DNA from: a virus
DNA: 35,304 bases
Direction: 5' to 3' (one strand)
IMG/VR virus record: IMGVR_UViG_3300009128_000071
Coordinates: 1 to 35,304 of that record
Each line of letters starts with the position of its first letter. The stretch's first letter is position 1. The position numbers were made by a program, and so were the translations under genes. Under the pieces are notes generated by a model that saw nothing but the letters and a program-made list of their open reading frames with translations, had not been told where the DNA came from and searched no databases. Below, one piece after another: positions 6,598 to 34,191 of the stretch.

Positions 6598-6878
6598 TGG
6601 CGCACCCGTCGAAGTCCGACCTCATCAAGGTGTACCTGGCCAAGATGATCGAGGACCACCGCCCGGAGATCGAGTCCGCGTTCGAGGCGGGCTGCTACCG
6701 GATGTCGGCCATGACGATCGTCCTTCGCTTCGACAAGAGCGGGCGCCCGGCCACGGGATCGTTCCGGGCCGACGTGGAGCACGACCTCAAGCGGGGCGTT
6801 CACGAGCACCGCAGGGAGGGCCCGTCGAAGGGCCCGTTCGACGGGTCGGCGGACGGAGGGGTTGACAAAAAAAGCTGA
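6597..6878 (+). CDS. Small hypothetical protein overlapping the protease stop
   Basis: 93 aa from GTG at 6597, which shares its first base with the protease stop (TAGTG), an overlap typical of translational coupling. The protein has a HPSKSDLIKVYLAKMIEDHRPEIE helix, then MTIVLRFDKSGRP, a beta strand-like stretch, and a charged tail. No known domain is recognised. The -35 of the promoter at 6862 lies inside its last codons, so this gene ends the upstream part of the head cluster. The start could also be an ATG further in; coupling favours the GTG. Confidence 0.6.
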   Translation: MAHPSKSDLIKVYLAKMIEDHRPEIESAFEAGCYRMSAMTIVLRFDKSGRPATGSFRADVEHDLKRGVHEHRREGPSKGPFDGSADGGVDKKS

Positions 6879-6891
6879 GGCGTTCTAGCAT
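6862..6891 (+). promoter_or_regulatory. Sigma70-like promoter (TTGACA, 18 bp, TAGCAT)
   Basis: A perfect -35 TTGACA (6862-6867) is followed after 18 bases by TAGCAT (6886-6891; four of six bases match TATAAT). The spacer starts with an A-run. The expected transcription start is about 6898. It is the best match to a housekeeping promoter seen in the window and stands in otherwise very GC-rich DNA. It points at the structured segment that ends in a terminator at 7052. Confidence 0.7.
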
Positions 6892-6897
6892 ACACCT

Positions 6898-7052
6898 AGC
6901 TAATAAAAACCGCGCTGCGGTTTAAAGTCCCGTCGGGGGATCGGCGACAGTCCCCCCTCGGGCGAGACATTTCGGGCTCCAGCCGCCGGAGAAGATGTGT
7001 AGGCGGCCGATCAGGCAGGACTCCAGCCTCGCCGGATCGGTCGCCTTTTTTT
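6898..7052 (+). ncRNA. Candidate structured non-coding RNA between protease and scaffold genes
   Basis: The ~155-base segment between the promoter at 6862 and the terminator has no convincing open frame but dense pairing. Hairpin 1 is 6907-6913 with 6917-6923 (AAACCGC/GCGGTTT). Hairpin 2 is 6929-6932 with 6959-6962 and, inside a 2x2 internal loop, GGGGGA (6935-6940) with TCCCCC (6951-6956). Hairpin 3 is CTCC (6977-6980) with GGAG (6988-6991). Hairpin 4 is the terminator. It is not a tRNA: no acceptor or T-loop pattern fits. It could be a free small RNA, or a leader that regulates the scaffold gene 14 bases downstream. No known RNA family is recognised. Confidence 0.55.
7001..7052 (+). terminator. 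Intrinsic terminator (12-bp stem plus seven T)
   Basis: AGGCGGCCGATC (7001-7012) pairs with GATCGGTCGCCT (7035-7046) with one G-U pair, and seven T (7046-7052) follow at once. It is the only hairpin with a U-tract that I found in the window. It ends the candidate RNA and would also stop most upstream transcription before the scaffold and capsid genes unless antitermination or a leader switch acts. Confidence 0.85.
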
Positions 7053-7065
7053 GTGGAGAGTCCCC

Positions 7066-7992
7066 ATGCCGAAGAAGAACTGGCTGTCGGACATCAAGGC
7101 TCGGAAGGTGAGCCTCGTCCCCAGGGCGGCCAACCGGCGAACATTCCTTTTAACGAAATCAGACGGAGGAGAGACCATGGACCCCAAGATCCTCAAGGCC
7201 CTGCTCAACGGCGAGTTCGACGACGCCACCCAGGCCGAGATCCTGAAGAGCCTCGAGACCGACCCCGACTTCGCGGCCAAGCTCTCGAAGGCGGTGGAGG
7301 GGCTCGACGACAAGGGGCGGGCGATCGTTTCCGCGCTCGCCAAGATCCTCGCGCCGCACAAGGACTCCATCTCCCGCGACGTCGTGGACGGCCTGGCCGA
7401 CCTGGTCGGGTACGACCCGGTGAAGAAGGAGACCAAGGACCCCGCCCCGACCGGCGGTGACTCGCCCGCCGGCAAGCATCCCCTCATGAAGGAGGACGGA
7501 ACCTGGGACCTGTCCGGGGTGGACGAGGCCCAGCGCCCGTTCTTCAAGTCCGTCCTGGACGCCCAGGAGAAGGACCGCATCGAGAAGGAGCAGCTCCAGA
7601 AGGACCTCGCCGAGGAGCGCGAGATCCGGCTCCGCAAGGAGTACGTCGAGAAGGCCGGGGAGTTCACCCACCTCCCGGGCATCGAGCAGGAGGGCCTGGC
7701 CGACGTCCTGAAGGCGATCAAGGAGAAGGCTCCCGAGGTCTACGACACCGTCGAGAAGGTCTTCGGCTCCGTGCAGAAGGCCATGGAGGAGAGCGAGCTC
7801 TGGAAGGAGCGCGGCTCCGGCGGCGCCGGCTTCGTCGGGAGCGCCGAGGAGGAGATAAACAAGGAGGCCGAGAGGCTCGTCGAAAAGGACGGCAGCCTGA
7901 CCCAGGCCCAGGCGGTGGATAGGGTGCTGGCCTCCAGGCCGGACCTTTACAAGAAGTACGAGGCCGAGCGCGTCGCCAAGATTCCGCAGTAG
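7066..7992 (+). CDS. Scaffold-like prohead core protein
   Basis: 308 aa from the ATG at 7066, preceded by GGAGAG just past the terminator T-run; an alternative in-frame start at 7051 would begin inside the T-run. The N-terminus carries ARKVSLVPRAANRRTFLLTKS, a motif found at the junction of XkdF-type proteases and scaffold-like proteins. The rest is acidic, Lys/Glu-rich and helical, with a coiled-coil-like region around residues 155-200 and a conserved-looking C-terminus ending in YKKYEAERVAKIPQ. Size, composition and position between protease and capsid genes fit an internal scaffold. A minor capsid role is the alternative. Confidence 0.6.
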   Translation: MPKKNWLSDIKARKVSLVPRAANRRTFLLTKSDGGETMDPKILKALLNGEFDDATQAEILKSLETDPDFAAKLSKAVEGLDDKGRAIVSALAKILAPHKDSISRDVVDGLADLVGYDPVKKETKDPAPTGGDSPAGKHPLMKEDGTWDLSGVDEAQRPFFKSVLDAQEKDRIEKEQLQKDLAEEREIRLRKEYVEKAGEFTHLPGIEQEGLADVLKAIKEKAPEVYDTVEKVFGSVQKAMEESELWKERGSGGAGFVGSAEEEINKEAERLVEKDGSLTQAQAVDRVLASRPDLYKKYEAERVAKIPQ

Positions 7993-8066: not shown

Positions 8067-9431
8067 ATGAACAACATCTTCACCTTTTCTCGACTGGCCG
8101 CCGCCGACCTGAGCGCCGGGCAATACCGAGGGCTGAAGATCGACAGCAACGGCAACTTCGCGCGAGCCGGCGCGGGGGAGCGTACGGTCGCCATCCAGCA
8201 GAACGAGCCGGTGCTCGGACAAGCCTGCGACGGGATGGCCCTCGGGATCACGAAGGCCGAGTACGGGGACGACGTGCTCGCCGGGAGGAACCTCACCACC
8301 GACGGCAACGGGAAGTTCGTCCACGCCGCGGGTGACGCGAACGTCGCCTGCGTGGCCCTCGAGGCCGGCGCCGACGGCGAGAACCACCTCGTCCTGGTGG
8401 CGACGATCACCCAGTTCGGTCTCGGGACCGGCGTGGTCACGACCGAGAACATCGCGGCCGACGCCATCGACGGGACGCTCATCGCCGACGACGCGGTCGA
8501 CAGCGAGCACTACACCGACGGCTCGATCGACACCGCGCACATCGCGGCCGACGCCATCGACGGGACGCTCATCGCCGACGACGCGGTCGACAGCGAACAC
8601 ATCGTCGCCGGGGCCATCGACACCGCGCACCTCGGAACCCTCTCGATCGACACCGCGCAGATCGCGGCCGACGCCATCGACGGGACGAAGATCGCCGACG
8701 ATAGCATCGACAGCGAGCATTACGTCGATGGTTCTATCGACCTGGCCCACCTGGCGGCCGACTGCGTGGACGGGACGAAGATCGCGGACGACTCGATCGA
8801 CAGCGAGCACTACGTCGATGCCAGCATCGACACGGCCCACATCGGTCTCCTGCAGATCACGACCGCGCTCCTGGCGGCCGACGCCGTGGACGGGACGAAG
8901 ATCGCGGACGACTCGATCGACAGCGAGCACTACGTCGACGGCAGCATCGACACGGCCCACATCGCGGCCGACGCGATCGATGGGACCTTGATCGCCGACG
9001 ACGCCCTCGACAGCGAGCATTACACGGACGGCTCCGTCGACGTGGCGCACCTCGCTCAATCGGCGACGCCCGTCGCCGTGCTCACCTTCCCGATCCCGGA
9101 CATGTCGGCAGTCGCGAACGGGGACCTCGTGACCAATTATCCGATGTCCGGAGAGTACGAGGTCGTCGGTCTCTACTGGATCTGTACGACCCCGATCACG
9201 ACCGCCGCGAAGCACGCGGAATTCAACGTCGAGATCAACGCCGTGAACTGCACGGGCGGCGTCCTGACGCTCGACGGGCAGTACTCGCTCGGCGGCGTCG
9301 TACAGGCGACGGAATTCACCGCCAACAACGTGGTCACGAACGGCGATACTCTCTCTATCGAGGTCGCGAACGTGACCTCCTTCGTCGAGGGCGCGGGCGT
9401 CCTGCAGCTTATTCTTATGCACAAGGACTAG
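8067..9431 (+). CDS. Head decoration protein fused to a decapeptide-repeat fibre and C-terminal beta domain
   Basis: 454 aa, with AGGAGG six bases before the ATG. Residues 1-125 (LSAGQYRGLKID, ERTVAIQQNEPVLGQACDG, AYxxx-type beta stretches ending ENHLVLV) resemble small phage decoration/DUF2190-like capsid-surface proteins. Residues 129-328 are exactly twenty 10-residue units, arranged as 30-residue supra-repeats of the kind IAADAIDGTL-IADDAVDSEH-YTDGSIDTAH. Residues 329-454 form a non-repeated, Thr/Asn/Val-rich beta domain that could be a trimeric knob. It lies directly before the major capsid gene. I infer a head fibre anchored by the decoration domain; a displaced tail fibre is the alternative. 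Confidence 0.65.
   Translation: MNNIFTFSRLAAADLSAGQYRGLKIDSNGNFARAGAGERTVAIQQNEPVLGQACDGMALGITKAEYGDDVLAGRNLTTDGNGKFVHAAGDANVACVALEAGADGENHLVLVATITQFGLGTGVVTTENIAADAIDGTLIADDAVDSEHYTDGSIDTAHIAADAIDGTLIADDAVDSEHIVAGAIDTAHLGTLSIDTAQIAADAIDGTKIADDSIDSEHYVDGSIDLAHLAADCVDGTKIADDSIDSEHYVDASIDTAHIGLLQITTALLAADAVDGTKIADDSIDSEHYVDGSIDTAHIAADAIDGTLIADDALDSEHYTDGSVDVAHLAQSATPVAVLTFPIPDMSAVANGDLVTNYPMSGEYEVVGLYWICTTPITTAAKHAEFNVEINAVNCTGGVLTLDGQYSLGGVVQATEFTANNVVTNGDTLSIEVANVTSFVEGAGVLQLILMHKD
8451..9050 (+). repeat. Twenty in-frame 30-bp (10-residue) coding repeats
   Basis: The 600-bp segment encodes 20 decapeptides with consensus x-(A/T/V)-(D)-(A/S/G)-(I/V/L)-D-(G/S/T)-x-x-x. Six 90-bp supra-units can be read, with two extra 10-residue units (LGTLSIDTAQ and IGLLQITTAL) between them. 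Several supra-units are nearly identical at DNA level (for example around 8455-8600, 8671-8720, 8885-8960), which points to recent duplication and makes length change by slippage or recombination likely. Confidence 0.9.
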
Positions 9432-9460: not shown

Positions 9461-9488
9461 GCCCGGCGCTCCTCGCGGAGCGTCGGGC
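9461..9488 (+). other. Strong hairpin in the leader of the major capsid gene
   Basis: GCCCGGCGCTCC (9461-9472), loop TCGC, GGAGCGTCGGGC (9477-9488): 12 paired bases with one G-U, 36 bases before the capsid ATG. There is no T-run after it, so it is not a classic intrinsic terminator. It may stabilise or define the 5' end of the capsid mRNA. The rest of the 92-base spacer holds only the AGGTAATAGGGAGG ribosome-binding region. Confidence 0.65.
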
Positions 9489-9523
9489 GAGGACCCGCTA
9501 ACAGGTAATAGGGAGGATACCTC

Positions 9524-10498
9524 ATGCAACCGACTCCTGGTGACGTACACGTCAACAGACCGTTGACGAACATCCTCGTAGCCTACGTCCAGAAGGCCAC
9601 GAACTTCATCGCAGACCGCGTATTCCCGCGCGTCCCGGTCCCGAAGCAGTCGGACGTGTACTTCACGTACGACCGGGAGGACTGGTTCCGCGACGAGGCG
9701 GCAGAGCGGGGGCCCACCGCCGAGTCCGCGGGGAGCGGGTACAACGTCGACAACACCGAGTCCTACCGCTGCAAGGTCGTGGCGTTTCACAAGGACATCC
9801 CCGACCAGGTGCGCGCGAACGAGGACTCGCCGATCAACGGAGACCGCGACGGAACCCTGTTCACCTCCCAGAAGCTCATGCTGAAGAAGGAGAGGGACTG
9901 GGCCACCGCCTACTTCGGCGCGAGCCTCTGGACGACCGAGTACGACGGCGTGAACGCCGCGCCCGGCGCCGGCGAGTTCCTCCAGTGGGACGACGCCAGC
10001 TCGACGCCGAGGCAGGACATCAGCGCCGCGAAGCTCGCCATGGCCGAGCTCACCGGGTTCGTCCCGAACAAGCTGGTCATCGGGCCCGAGGTCTGGGAGC
10101 AGCTCAAGCAGCACCCGACCATCACGGACATCTACAAGCACACGCAGAAGGGGCTCATCACGCCCCAGCTGCTCGCCGAGGTGTTCGAGGTCGACGAGGT
10201 CCTGATCCCGTGGGCCGTGTTCAACAGCGCGGCGCAGGGCGGCACGGCCTCGTACAGCTTCATCTACGGCAAGGCGGCCCTGCTCCTCTACGCCGCGCCG
10301 GCGCCGTCGATCCTCGCCCCGAGCGCCGGGTACACGTTCAGCTGGACCGGCTACCTCGGCGCGCAGGAGACCGGCAGCCGCATCAAGAAGTTCCGGCTCG
10401 AGCGTAACAGCTGCGATCGGATCGAGGGCGAGATGGCGTACGACCAGAAGCTGGTCGCCGCGGACCTCGGAGCATACTTCGCGACGGCCGTGGCCTAA
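9524..10498 (+). CDS. Major capsid protein
   Basis: 324 aa with GGGAGG seven to eight bases before the ATG. The order of segments (VNRPLTNILVAYVQKATNFIADRVFPRVPV, then YFTYDREDWFRDEAAERGP, then RDWATAYFG, then a C-terminal LVIGPEVWEQLKQHP, IYGKAALLLYAAP, RLERNSCDRIEGEMAYDQKLVAADLG) is characteristic of a well-known group of HK97-fold phage major capsid proteins. It forms the icosahedral shell with the scaffold and decoration proteins encoded just upstream. No long N-terminal delta domain is present, consistent with a separate scaffold protein. Confidence 0.9.
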   Translation: MQPTPGDVHVNRPLTNILVAYVQKATNFIADRVFPRVPVPKQSDVYFTYDREDWFRDEAAERGPTAESAGSGYNVDNTESYRCKVVAFHKDIPDQVRANEDSPINGDRDGTLFTSQKLMLKKERDWATAYFGASLWTTEYDGVNAAPGAGEFLQWDDASSTPRQDISAAKLAMAELTGFVPNKLVIGPEVWEQLKQHPTITDIYKHTQKGLITPQLLAEVFEVDEVLIPWAVFNSAAQGGTASYSFIYGKAALLLYAAPAPSILAPSAGYTFSWTGYLGAQETGSRIKKFRLERNSCDRIEGEMAYDQKLVAADLGAYFATAVA

Positions 10499-11163: not shown

Positions 11164-11679
11164 ATGGAGCAGACCGCAAAAATCCTCCGGTCGACGGGGC
11201 TCGTGAGGCCGATGCCGTGGGATCTCGTCAGCATGATCCGGGGGAAAGCGTGGCACGTCGAGGACGTGGTGCGGGAGATCGCGAACGGAGCCGACCACTC
11301 GTGGGAGCTCTCCCTCGGACAGGCGGCGCTCGTGTCCGTCGCGTTCTTCGTCGACACGGTCGACGCGGACCTGATAGCGACCATGTCGATCGGTGAAACC
11401 TACACCGGCGGTGAGAACGAGGCGACGAAGTACAACCTGAGCGAGTACGCCACCGGCGACGCGACGTTCTCGATCTACCACGACCCGTCGAACTACGCCG
11501 GCGACGTGGAGATGTCGCGCATCCTCCCGACGACGGAGGAGGAGGTCCTCGCCCTGGAATCGCTCGAGCGCGGCTACATGCTCCTGCAGGCGGGCGGCCA
11601 GCGCCGCTTCAAGGTCGCGAACGACTCCGGAGACACCCGGACGGTCAAGCTCCTTATGCGGGTTCACGAGATCGACTGA
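11164..11679 (+). CDS. Hypothetical structural protein between capsid and neck genes
   Basis: 171 aa, starting 5 bases after the previous stop. Its end overlaps the next ATG by one base (TGATG). The sequence is mostly beta-like with YTGGENEATKYNLSEYATGDATFSIYHDP in the middle and a C-terminal GYMLLQAGGQRRFKVAN..TRTVKLLMRVHEI. No domain is recognised. Position suggests a virion or head-completion protein. Confidence 0.65.
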   Translation: MEQTAKILRSTGLVRPMPWDLVSMIRGKAWHVEDVVREIANGADHSWELSLGQAALVSVAFFVDTVDADLIATMSIGETYTGGENEATKYNLSEYATGDATFSIYHDPSNYAGDVEMSRILPTTEEEVLALESLERGYMLLQAGGQRRFKVANDSGDTRTVKLLMRVHEID

Positions 11680-12116
11680 TGACCTGGACCTACGGGGGAG
11701 ACCCGTCCGCCAACGATCGCGACGCCGTGCGCTTCACGATCCAGGACACGGAGACCAGCGAGCAGCTCGTCTCCGACGAAGAGATCGCCTACCTCCTGAG
11801 CGAGGCCGGAGATGACGTGATCAAGGCCTCCATCGCGGCCTGCGAGGCGATCTCGAGGAGGTTCGCCAGGAAGGCCTCGCAGACCACCGGGCGCGTGAGC
11901 GTCAACTACAGCGAGCGCGCGAAGGTCTGGATCGACCTGGCCGACAAGCTCCGGACCCGGGCGCTGGTCGAGAACATGAGCGACACGCCGTACGCCGGAG
12001 GGATCAGCCAGGACGACGTCGACTCCGTGAAGGACGACTCGGACCGAGTCGCCCCGGCGTTCACCAAGGGAATGCACGACAACGAGAGCACGTATGTTGA
12101 CGCAGAAGACAACTGA
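11679..12116 (+). CDS. Head-tail connector/adaptor protein (gp6/gp15-like)
   Basis: 145 aa. The N-terminus (TWTYGGDPSANDRDAVRFTIQDT followed by LVSDEEIAYLLSEAG) is the typical opening of phage head-tail adaptor proteins of the HK97 gp6/SPP1 gp15-like kind. It is followed by helices with AACEAISRRFARKA and a VNYSERAKVWIDLADKLR segment. The protein would form a ring below the portal. Its C-terminal acidic tail overlaps the next gene by 23 bases in another frame. Confidence 0.75.
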   Translation: MTWTYGGDPSANDRDAVRFTIQDTETSEQLVSDEEIAYLLSEAGDDVIKASIAACEAISRRFARKASQTTGRVSVNYSERAKVWIDLADKLRTRALVENMSDTPYAGGISQDDVDSVKDDSDRVAPAFTKGMHDNESTYVDAEDN

Positions 12117-26003: not shown

Positions 26004-26312
26004 ATGACGCTCAGAAGAGGCGACGTGATCGAGACGAACTACGGGACGGGCCCGTACGTGGTGGAGGAGGTGGTCCGGGGCTGCACCTGTCCGAGCTACC
26101 TCGAGGAGATCAACTGCGACGGCGGGCCCGCCCCGTCGCCCGAGCACGTTCACCTGGTACTCCGCCTCGAGTCGCCTCCGGACGGAAGGATGAACGGACC
26201 GTTTTACCTGAACGGCTACGACGAGGAGACGCTGGAGAGCGTGTGGAGCGACGACCGGATCGTCCGGCTCGACCGCCACGCGGTCGGCGTTCAGCTCGGG
26301 CTGTTCGGATGA
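26004..26312 (+). CDS. Small hypothetical protein ending in a clamp-binding-like QLGLF motif
   Basis: 102 aa with GGAGG seven bases before the ATG. The N-terminal half (LRRGDVIETNYGTGPYVVEEVVRGC) reads like a small beta-barrel found in many phage early proteins, with CTCPSYLEEINC as a Cys pair. The last residues VQLGLFG contain QLGLF, which fits the consensus QL(S/D)LF that binds the bacterial DNA sliding clamp. It opens the early gene cluster. The clamp link is inference from the motif. It overlaps the next possible ATG by ATGA. Confidence 0.65.
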   Translation: MTLRRGDVIETNYGTGPYVVEEVVRGCTCPSYLEEINCDGGPAPSPEHVHLVLRLESPPDGRMNGPFYLNGYDEETLESVWSDDRIVRLDRHAVGVQLGLFG

Positions 26313-26326
26313 GAGGAGGTGATAGA

Positions 26327-26590
26327 GTGGACAGGAACCAGGGAGAGGAGGCGCGGCTGAAGCTGACGAGGGGCGTGATCCAGGAGGCCCTCGCCGAGTA
26401 CCCGGACCCGCTCGACGTCGCCCAGGCCGCGACGATCGCGAACTACAAGCCGAAGACGATCCGGCGGCTGGTGAGCGAGGGCGTGATAGAGGCCATCCGG
26501 CCGGGGACGGCGGGAGGTCAGAGGCCTCCGATCCGGATCTCGCACGCCGCCCTCCTGGCCTGGCTCTTCCCCGACGAGCCGGAGGCCTAA
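26327..26590 (+). CDS. Helix-turn-helix DNA-binding protein (excisionase/HTH_17-like)
   Basis: 87 aa from GTG at 26327, which has a perfect AGGAGGT (26314-26320) at ideal spacing; the earlier ATG at 26309 overlaps the previous stop but has no SD. LDVAQAATIANYKPKTIRRLVSEGVIEAIRPGTAGGQRPPIRISHAALLAWL is a winged HTH of the excisionase/MerR-like type, with the recognition helix at KPKTIRRLV and the wing at RPGTAGGQRPP. It sits just after the decamer array and may be its binder. Excisionase action is unlikely because no integrase is seen. Confidence 0.75.
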   Translation: MDRNQGEEARLKLTRGVIQEALAEYPDPLDVAQAATIANYKPKTIRRLVSEGVIEAIRPGTAGGQRPPIRISHAALLAWLFPDEPEA

Positions 26591-32175: not shown

Positions 32176-33894
32176 ATGGCGAAGAAGAAGGCCGCCGGCG
32201 GGGACTGGCGGCGAGACATCGAGACTTTCATGGACGCCCTGTTCAGGGACGTGGACGGCGATCGCCAGGTCCTCGTCTGGACGCTCCCCAACAAGAGGTC
32301 CCACTGGGCCCCGTCCGCCGAAGCCGCGGCGAAGAAGGCCGCCGCGCTCCGCCCGAAGCACGACGTATACGTGGGCGTCGGGATCGCCCCGGCCGACTTC
32401 GGCGTCCCCAAGAAGGACCTGCACAAGCGGCGGTGCCCGTCCCACAAGATCGCGGGGATCTCCGGCATCGTCATCGACGTAGACGTGGAGGGGCCGGGGC
32501 ACAAGAAGAAGCGACTCCCGAAAACGTACAAGGAGGCCGAGCGGATCGTCGGCTGCCTCGGGCTCGAGCCCACGATGGTCGTCTCCTCCGGCGGCGGCAT
32601 CCACGCCTGGTGGCTGTTCAAGGAGCCGTGGTGGTTCGACGACGACGAGGAGCGGGCCCGAGCCGAGCGGTTGAGTCAACTGTGGACGGCCACGATCAAG
32701 CGCCGGGCGATGGAGGACCTCGGCGTCGAGATGGACAGCGTCTGGGAGCTGGCGCGCGTGATGCGCGTCCCGGGGACGATGAACCGCAAGAGCTCTCCTC
32801 CCACGCCGGCGTCGTTCCTCGAGGAGCCGAGCGAGGGCAAGCGCTGGCTGGTCAGCGACCTCGAGGACGCCATCCCGCCCGACGTGGTGGGAGACACGCC
32901 CGCCCCCGAGAAGTCTCGCGGTACGGGCGAGGAGGGCGCCGGCGACACCTTCACGCTGAGGGCCGGGGCCAACCCGCCGTTCCGGAAGTTCGACGTGTTC
33001 ATCAACAACAGCCCGAAGTTCAAGGGCACCTGGGAGAGGACGCGCAAGGACCTCAACGACACGTCGTCCTCGGGGTACGACATGAGCCTGGCCGTCCAGG
33101 CCGCCATGGTGGACTGGACCAACCAGGAGATCGTGGACCTGCTGGTCGCCTCCCACGAGAAGCACGGGGACGACAAGCACCACGAGCGGGTCGACTACTA
33201 CGCGATCACGCTCCGCCAGGCCCGGAACTACATCAAGAAGGATCGGTCGCTGGACCGGCTCTCGGAGCTGTCGAACACGGACGAGGTCGCCGGCTCCGAG
33301 GCCTCCTCCGAGCCCGCCGACCGGGGGGAGCTCCTGACCTGCCTGTCGGAGGTCCTCGGTATCGCGATCCACCGGATCGTCAAGTACACGAGCGACCCGC
33401 CCTCGTACCGCCTGGAGACGGCGCGCGGGGCGATCATGCTCGGCGGCGTGGCCGGGCTGATCGACCAGCGGGCGTTTCGCACCCACGTGGCGGCCGCCAC
33501 GGGGAAGTCCATCCCCAGGTACAAGACGCCGGCCTGGGCGATCATCGAGCAGCACCTCCTGGACGTCTGCGAGGAGGTCGAGGTCGGGGAGGAGGGGACG
33601 GACTTCGGGAGCGTCCGGGGCTGGCTGGCGGACTACCTGGAGGAGACGAGGCCGACCAAGGACGCCAACGAGGCCGGGAGCGCGCGGGCCCCGTTCGTCG
33701 ACGACGACGGCGTGGTCTACTTCTTCCTGGACTCCCTGCGGAAGTACGTCTGGATCAACCGGATGGACCGCCGGAGCTGCAAGGACCTGGCCAGCCTCCT
33801 GAGGCTGATCGGGTGCGCCCCGACTCGCCGACACTTCCAGATCGGGGGCTCGGCGACCACGCGCAGCGTGTGGCGGTTCGAGGTCGAGAAGTGA
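32176..33894 (+). CDS. Primase-polymerase (archaeo-eukaryotic primase superfamily)
   Basis: 572 aa from the ATG at 32176 after CGGAGGCG; upstream in-frame codons lie in the hairpin region. VIDVDVEG (residues ~100-107) is the metal-binding DxD motif. VVSSGGGIHAWWLFKEPW (the SGxGxH motif, ~135-150) and LARVMRVPGTMNRK are typical for phage/plasmid prim-pols. The C-terminal ~250 residues resemble the helical linker and winged domain of replication proteins, but no helicase Walker motif is present; the helicase is a separate gene downstream. It starts DNA synthesis at the phage origin. Confidence 0.85.
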   Translation: MAKKKAAGGDWRRDIETFMDALFRDVDGDRQVLVWTLPNKRSHWAPSAEAAAKKAAALRPKHDVYVGVGIAPADFGVPKKDLHKRRCPSHKIAGISGIVIDVDVEGPGHKKKRLPKTYKEAERIVGCLGLEPTMVVSSGGGIHAWWLFKEPWWFDDDEERARAERLSQLWTATIKRRAMEDLGVEMDSVWELARVMRVPGTMNRKSSPPTPASFLEEPSEGKRWLVSDLEDAIPPDVVGDTPAPEKSRGTGEEGAGDTFTLRAGANPPFRKFDVFINNSPKFKGTWERTRKDLNDTSSSGYDMSLAVQAAMVDWTNQEIVDLLVASHEKHGDDKHHERVDYYAITLRQARNYIKKDRSLDRLSELSNTDEVAGSEASSEPADRGELLTCLSEVLGIAIHRIVKYTSDPPSYRLETARGAIMLGGVAGLIDQRAFRTHVAAATGKSIPRYKTPAWAIIEQHLLDVCEEVEVGEEGTDFGSVRGWLADYLEETRPTKDANEAGSARAPFVDDDGVVYFFLDSLRKYVWINRMDRRSCKDLASLLRLIGCAPTRRHFQIGGSATTRSVWRFEVEK

Positions 33895-33908
33895 CGTTTT
33901 CGAGCAAT

Positions 33909-33931
33909 ACCCGTATATGGGGAGCGTTTTG
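33909..33931 (+). promoter_or_regulatory. Regulatory element B (CCCGTATATGGGG with GAGCGTTTT flank)
   Basis: ACCCGTATATGGGGAGCGTTTTG lies 15 bases after the primase stop. Its reverse complement matches element A over TTCGTTTC-N10-AACGCTCCC-YATATA-GGG with identical spacing (the TTCGTTTC block is at 33938-33945 on this strand as GAAACGAA). Same orientation as element C. Confidence 0.5.
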
Positions 33932-33957
33932 TTTTTTTGAAACGAATTTGAAAATGC

Positions 33958-34021
33958 GTTATCCAAGTTATCCGATCGCCCGTAACCATACGGAATCATT
34001 ACGAGAAAGTGCTTGATAACC
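33958..34021 (+). repeat. Origin-like module, copy 1
   Basis: A 64-bp unit that begins GTTATCCAAGTTATCC (two GTTATCC at a 9-base period) and ends TGATAACC, so its ends are inverted. Copy 2 starts exactly 77 bases later and matches it at 44 of 64 positions without gaps. GTTATCC resembles the core of a DnaA box (TTATCCACA) but lacks the ACA. The region is AT-rich and gene-free, next to the primase. Confidence 0.7.
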
Positions 34022-34034
34022 TGGGGGTTTCTAC

Positions 34035-34098
34035 GTTATCCTAATTATCCGCGCCCTCGTAAGGAGCTGTAATCACGATGGAAACATGCCTGATAACC
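34035..34098 (+). repeat. Origin-like module, copy 2
   Basis: The unit begins GTTATCCTAATTATCC and ends TGATAACC, with conserved CGTAA, AATCA and TGC(T/C)TGATAACC blocks relative to copy 1. It is followed by ATATTTATAACG. The start region of a small open frame (ATG 34078) lies inside it. Confidence 0.7.
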
Positions 34099-34191
34099 AT
34101 ATTTATAACGACGTCGTCGGCTGGTGCACACGGTCGCCTGTTCCCCGTTTCCGCCCCGTCGACCGCGCCCCTATATAGGGGGGCGTTTTGA
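34078..34191 (+). CDS. Possible 37-residue leader peptide coupled to the helicase gene
   Basis: ATG 34078 follows AAGGAG (34061-34066) by 11 bases. The frame reads METCLITIFITTSSAGAHGR and ends AFRGAF-like (..APLYRGAF) at TGA 34189-34191, which overlaps the helicase TTG start (TTGA). The overlap and SD suggest translation; the sequence has no domain. It crosses element C. A leader that controls helicase expression is one reading; a chance frame is the other. Confidence 0.4.
   Translation: METCLITIFITTSSAGAHGRLFPVSAPSTAPLYRGAF
34167..34190 (+). promoter_or_regulatory. Regulatory element C (perfect palindrome CCCCTATATAGGGG)
   Basis: A 14-bp perfect palindrome (34168-34181) followed by GGCGTTTTG, directly upstream of the helicase. 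It shares the core and the GCGTTTT flank with element B and, inverted, with element A. AGGGGGG also serves as the SD of the TTG start at 34188, so a protein bound here would block both transcription and start-up of the helicase. Confidence 0.55.

Follow-up and report, generated by a model that had tools for sequence, protein, structure and literature searches.

Promoter, leader and intrinsic terminator preceding the scaffold and capsid genes of a tailed phage: a possible attenuated late promoter

What does a promoter-leader-terminator unit do in the middle of a phage head-gene cluster, and how would the capsid gene be transcribed past it? These questions are raised by a 35,304-base virus record (IMGVR_UViG_3300009128_000071), analyzed over its whole length and referred to here as the window, in which essentially all recognisable genes lie on the + strand in the order small and large terminase, portal, head morphogenesis, protease, a 93-aa protein, scaffold, head fibre, major capsid, tail and replication. 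An earlier note, made from the DNA letters alone, had placed the unit between the protease and scaffold genes and read it either as a complete gene for a trans-acting small RNA or as a conditional leader that sets capsid expression. The location holds, with the small 93-aa gene adjoining the unit on its protease side (Table 1); the TGA of this gene (6876-6878) falls inside the promoter spacer. Its product had no family or homologue above cutoff among phages, PHROGs and Pfam, and its single-sequence fold was of low confidence (mean pLDDT 59) and uninformative. On the other side of the unit, the N-terminal KVSLVPRAANRRTFLLTK motif of the scaffold (window 7066-7180) matches the N-terminus of the PHROG 3017 protease family (positions 5-35), and positions 34-152 of this family correspond to the separate protease gene, such that the family's two parts fall in different genes of this phage. 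The head-fibre-like protein further downstream (window 8067-9431) contains many near-identical repeats (AADAIDGTLIADDAVDSEHYTDGSIDTAHI).

Table 1. Positions of the features discussed, in window coordinates unless a locus is named
Feature	Position	Strand	Remarks
Small late gene, 93 aa	6597..6878	+	GTG start overlaps protease stop TAG
Near-perfect 25-bp palindrome, CCCGTCGAAGGGCCCGTTCGACGGG	6821..6845	.	Centre ~65 bp upstream of presumed start site
Sigma-70-type promoter, TTGACA-18-TAGCAT	6862..6891	+	TTGACA 6862-6867, TAGCAT 6886-6891
Presumed ~150-nt transcript/leader	6898..7052	+	Start (~6898) presumed from promoter, end from terminator; -72.6 kcal/mol
Hairpin 1, 7 bp	6907..6923	+	P = 0.02 versus shuffles, marginal; on the minus strand TTTTTATT comes after
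Hairpin 2	6929..6962	+	P = 0.04 versus shuffles, marginal
Hairpin 3	6967..6998	+	P = 0.24, not better than shuffled
Intrinsic terminator	7001..7052	+	GC-rich 12+6 bp stem + T7
Scaffold Shine-Dalgarno, GGAG	7055..7058	+	Starts three bases past U-tract
Scaffold gene	7066..7992	+	First gene 3' of terminator; N-terminal KVSLVPRAANRRTFLLTK motif
Major capsid gene	9524..10498	+	Member of block downstream of terminator
Motif CCSGGCGTGTCG	L242:3700, L244:3592, L245:3638, L246:3698		Directly before scaffold

The promoter proposed in the earlier note was borne out by a consensus scan, a weight matrix and shuffled sequences. TTGACA-N18-TAGCAT is the sole match in the 35 kb at ≤1 mismatch, and it ranks second on the + strand of the window under an E. 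coli-based sigma-70 matrix. Promoter-like sites this good arise 0.15 times per shuffled 35 kb, both strands counted, and strong hairpins with a U-tract 0.3 times; a promoter followed by a strong terminator within 300 nt occurred in 0/300 shuffled windows. The palindrome upstream of the promoter could serve as an operator, an activator site or another regulator site. In the initial transcribed region, GCTAAT at about +2 to +7 is by eye a 4/6 match to a -10-like pause element, lacks the key A and does not exceed chance. On each strand, the highest-scoring promoter-like site of the window (34013 on +, 34073 on -) lies after the primase gene in an AT-richer stretch (33890-34130) with repeated GTTATCC/GATAAC words, which looks like an operator/promoter region.

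The terminator is likewise as described before, a 12-bp stem with T7, and its stem proved to have a further 6 bp (7001-7012/7035-7046 plus 7014-7019/7027-7033; about -30 kcal/mol; T7 at 7046-7052). A simple consensus scan with a loop limit of 8 nt skipped it, and an energy scan found it to be the sole strong U-tract terminator on the + strand of the window. The claim that it is the only one in the window thus stands for strong sense-strand sites, but the minus strand has a weaker T5 hairpin at 26622-26596. This GC-rich 11-bp hairpin is followed by GGTTTTT, and its surroundings are otherwise all plus-strand. The terminator at the scaffold gene would be expected to halt late transcription arriving from upstream before it reaches scaffold and capsid. 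With so strong a terminator just ahead of these genes, capsid expression probably needs something that lets RNA polymerase pass.

We then considered what the RNA itself could contribute. The stretch of ~150 nt between promoter and terminator holds no gene, as had been claimed; the only frame overlapping its 3' part is one of 38 codons (6995-7111), which passes the terminator and enters the scaffold gene. The presumed transcript as a whole folds better than shuffled sequences (z about -3.1 to -3.4) and has the lowest z among 235 windows sampled on the + strand, but this comes mainly from the terminator (z = -5.1); without it, z is -1.4, and 9% of shuffles fold equally well. Of the four hairpins reported previously, one is very strong (the terminator) and two are plausible (hairpins 1 and 2), whereas hairpin 3 gets no support from the comparison with shuffles. 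Two loops repeat CUCCAGCC, which resembles an anti-Shine-Dalgarno sequence; a target search with these loops gave nothing significant. Terminal inverted repeats (ACAAAAAAAG/CTTTTTTTGT) were considered as mobile-element ends and are accounted for by runs of A in the promoter and of T in the terminator. Elsewhere among the sampled stretches, the second most structured (11690-11860; z about -5) lies inside the gene at 11679-12116, and the third (9462-9490) is a strong 12-bp hairpin (CCCGGCGCTCC...GGAGCGTCGGG) between the head-fibre and major-capsid genes that has no sense U-tract.

Searches for homologues of the RNA found none. No Rfam family was matched at gathering or permissive thresholds, the best relevant score being 15.3 bits for ncS035 against 79 required. 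An exact 19-mer search of IMG/VR, an exact 23-mer search of GTDB genomes, blastn of the element against 147 related loci and a DNA search of a phage collection were all without a match. A single-sequence covariance model applied to 58 sources plus 16 complete records recovered the element itself plus an antisense artefact of its own terminator, so that the covariance check against Rfam and related phage genomes suggested in the earlier note yielded no other hit. In Salmonella prophages, IsrK-type leader RNAs are short terminated RNAs whose promoter is in common with downstream phage genes; isrK has no sequence relation to the window RNA (12.4 bits, on the opposite strand). Altogether, ~240 related loci yielded nothing akin to the RNA. 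These loci were chosen through capsid and portal similarity; IMG/VR searches with scaffold, protease and large terminase gave no relatives. Redundancy was removed by identical flanks only, and genes were called by simple ORF rules. The nearest relatives share 58-59% capsid and ~55-58% portal identity, and the absence of the RNA applies to this distance rather than to close range. At 40-59% capsid-protein identity the flanking genes are kept and the hairpins are not conserved, a pattern that the earlier note had named as counting against the unit, though this distance is too great to settle the point.

Some relatives resemble the window in layout, not in sequence. Among 41 loci with a recognisable protease and scaffold, the two genes are 0-55 nt apart, often overlapping, in 32; in the remainder, the space between them holds extra genes or a long overlapping frame, or the start is uncertain. 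Ranked with the E. coli-based matrix, promoters upstream of the scaffold do better than would be expected (mean rank 0.32 over 38 loci); the means for portal (also enriched), capsid and fibre are 0.37, 0.44 and 0.55, and the enrichment may come partly from intergenic base composition. TTGACA promoters stand just before the scaffold in L185 (TTGACA-17-TACTAT) and L192 (TTGACA-17-TAGGAT), both 47 nt before the start, and in L100 (TTGACA-17-TTTCCT). Between portal and capsid, 121 relatives contain 11 sense and 1 antisense intergenic intrinsic terminators, and the head region is without such a terminator in 110 of them. In six relatives we observed a promoter, a leader and an intrinsic terminator, in front of the scaffold gene, the protease gene or the head gene that comes next, in sequences unrelated to that of the window; these were found by scanning for the layout and thus establish its recurrence but not the frequency with which it works. 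Two of them (L211 and L239) have the promoter, a leader of ~50-60 nt and the terminator directly before the scaffold. In another two (L092 and L078), similar units lie further upstream in the block, before genes that precede or encode the protease region. In the last two the unit is directly before the protease (L174:2420-2600, L178:1264-1444), with the -10 region (GTGATTTCGGGATAAGATA) and a GNRA-capped terminator conserved and the middle of the leader diverged; a pattern made from this leader matched these two contigs alone. In four cultured actinophages, the Arthrobacter phages Ottawa, Salgado and Kovu and the Microbacterium phage ValentiniPuff, a gap of 113-167 nt with strong hairpins precedes the scaffold. 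All four share the motif CCSGGCGTGTCG, present once per fetched stretch and only in this gap, which is a possible phage regulatory site.

Because relatives repeat the placement and order of promoter and terminator but not the RNA sequence, we favour a role in cis. We hypothesize that the unit is an attenuated promoter with its leader for the scaffold-capsid block, opened by a putative antiterminator, and that the short RNA is mainly the terminated product; judged from sequence comparisons, this reading has roughly an even chance of being correct. The earlier suggestion of a conditional leader fits the comparative data, in which promoters, several of them with a terminator, precede protease, scaffold or neighbouring head genes in unrelated sequences; its effect on capsid expression we infer.

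The main rival, which is possible but rather unlikely, is a stand-alone trans regulatory RNA (an "RNA moron"), perhaps inserted together with the 93-aa gene, that acts on host or phage mRNAs and whose terminator shields the head genes from its promoter. The unit is indeed complete in this sense, with its own promoter and terminator around an RNA without an open frame. Moreover, extra genes occupy the protease-scaffold junction in relatives, namely, MerR-type regulators exactly between the two genes in L030 (5780-6157) and L100 (6152-6508) and other small proteins in L065 and L080; therefore, the junction accepts insertions. (In L100, the TTGACA promoter lies between the regulator gene and the scaffold.) Small RNAs at moron sites are known from lambdoid prophages (PMC4104026), and phage morons and prophage small RNAs, such as AgvB and AsxR at the lambdoid moron site, resemble the unit described here in that an extra unit with its own promoter and terminator sits between phage genes. 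However, AgvB and AsxR are 51-60 nt, Hfq bound and at a lysis-side site, whereas the window RNA is ~150 nt, lies in the head cluster and has no known relatives. The anti-Shine-Dalgarno-like loop repeat would also suit a trans-acting RNA, though a repeat of this kind turns up in 8% of shuffles. Against this explanation are the lack of a homologue in any search made, the weak structure outside the terminator and the retention by related phages of promoter and terminator position but not of the RNA. The claim of a complete trans-acting small-RNA gene therefore gained no independent support: the searches gave neither a homologue nor a conserved RNA, and structure was significant nowhere beyond the terminator and perhaps two hairpins.

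Less likely still is plain insulation, in which the terminator merely ends the terminase-protease unit or the small gene, the promoter is there by coincidence, and capsid is expressed by read-through or from an unrecognised promoter. In line with this idea, four relatives (L002, L006, L012 and L072) have sense-strand terminators without a good promoter before head genes, and the cultured actinophages, too, have hairpins at this place. We nonetheless regard it as improbable, as the promoter, one of the window's two best, lies <200 nt from the terminator, a pairing absent from the shuffled windows.

Could the leader switch by itself? In an RNA-only attenuator, a ligand or a ribosome would decide whether the leader forms the terminator or an antiterminator. 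GCCGCC near 6981-6986 does pair with the 5' arm of the terminator in prefix folds before the terminator is complete, and the 38-codon frame runs through the terminator. However, alternatives enforced in the full leader are 10.2 and 22.6 kcal/mol worse, the terminator pairs have a probability near 1, the Shine-Dalgarno-to-start spacing of the 38-codon frame is just three bases, and no riboswitch family in Rfam matches. RNA-only switching is accordingly disfavoured and very improbable; with alternative pairings costing 10-23 kcal/mol, a trans factor or a modified polymerase would be needed to open the terminator. Least probable of all are an RNA with a packaging or structural role, like phi29 pRNA, and the RNA of a type III toxin-antitoxin system: the unit sits among head genes and its promoter-RNA-terminator-gene order fits type III antitoxins too, but there is no Rfam match and no tandem repeat, the large terminase is an ordinary one, and the downstream gene encodes a scaffold rather than a ToxN-like toxin.

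The attenuated-promoter reading could operate as follows. The host-type promoter at 6862 would start a transcript at ~6898, and by default RNA polymerase would stop at 7046-7052 and free a structured RNA of ~150 nt. A factor, most likely a phage antiterminator that is recruited either at the promoter or to the nascent leader in the manner of lambda Q, 21Q or AlpA, would modify the polymerase, which could then pass the terminator and transcribe the genes for scaffold, head fibre protein and major capsid. Unmodified polymerases coming from the terminase-portal-protease genes would be halted at the same terminator, with the result that scaffold and capsid expression may be timed and dosed separately.

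There is precedent for a promoter-embedded site with a downstream intrinsic terminator in lambda PR'-tR' with Q and in AlpA of Pseudomonas (PMC6606751, PMC7969949). Like the window unit, the lambdoid PR'-tR' units (lambda, 21 and 82) consist of a host-type promoter, a short untranslated leader and a strong intrinsic terminator followed by late genes, and, as expected of such a unit, the terminator in the window lies within ~200 nt of the promoter; their default product is a short terminated RNA, as proposed here. They differ in location, following Q at the start of the lysis/late genes, whereas the window unit is inside the head cluster before scaffold and capsid. They also differ in having Q: no Q gene, Q site or other antiterminator gene or binding site was identified in the window, which is a fragment and may lack the gene, and no Q-family gene was noticed among the subset of window proteins scanned. 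An HTH_17 protein is encoded at 26246-26590, and nothing connects it to the promoter-terminator site. The AlpA-controlled alpB and PA0807 promoters of Pseudomonas aeruginosa also have intrinsic terminator(s) before the first gene, and expression is set by read-through, as we propose for the window unit; this system, with AlpA and the site GGGACGN5GGTA, differs in serving bacterial self-lysis genes.

The recurrence of the layout invites a broader, tentative suggestion, less probable than the reading of the window unit itself: phages with capsids of the PHROG 1005 family may gate scaffold-capsid dosage by an internal promoter-terminator and a putative antitermination factor, re-invented in different lineages with leaders of different sequence. 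That these phages have the position in common but not the RNA sequence argues against calling each such unit a new small-RNA gene. If the suggestion is true, a widespread group of tailed phages that has received little study would gate its capsid production by internal read-through rather than rely on one long late operon, and the hunt for the matching antiterminators would become concrete.
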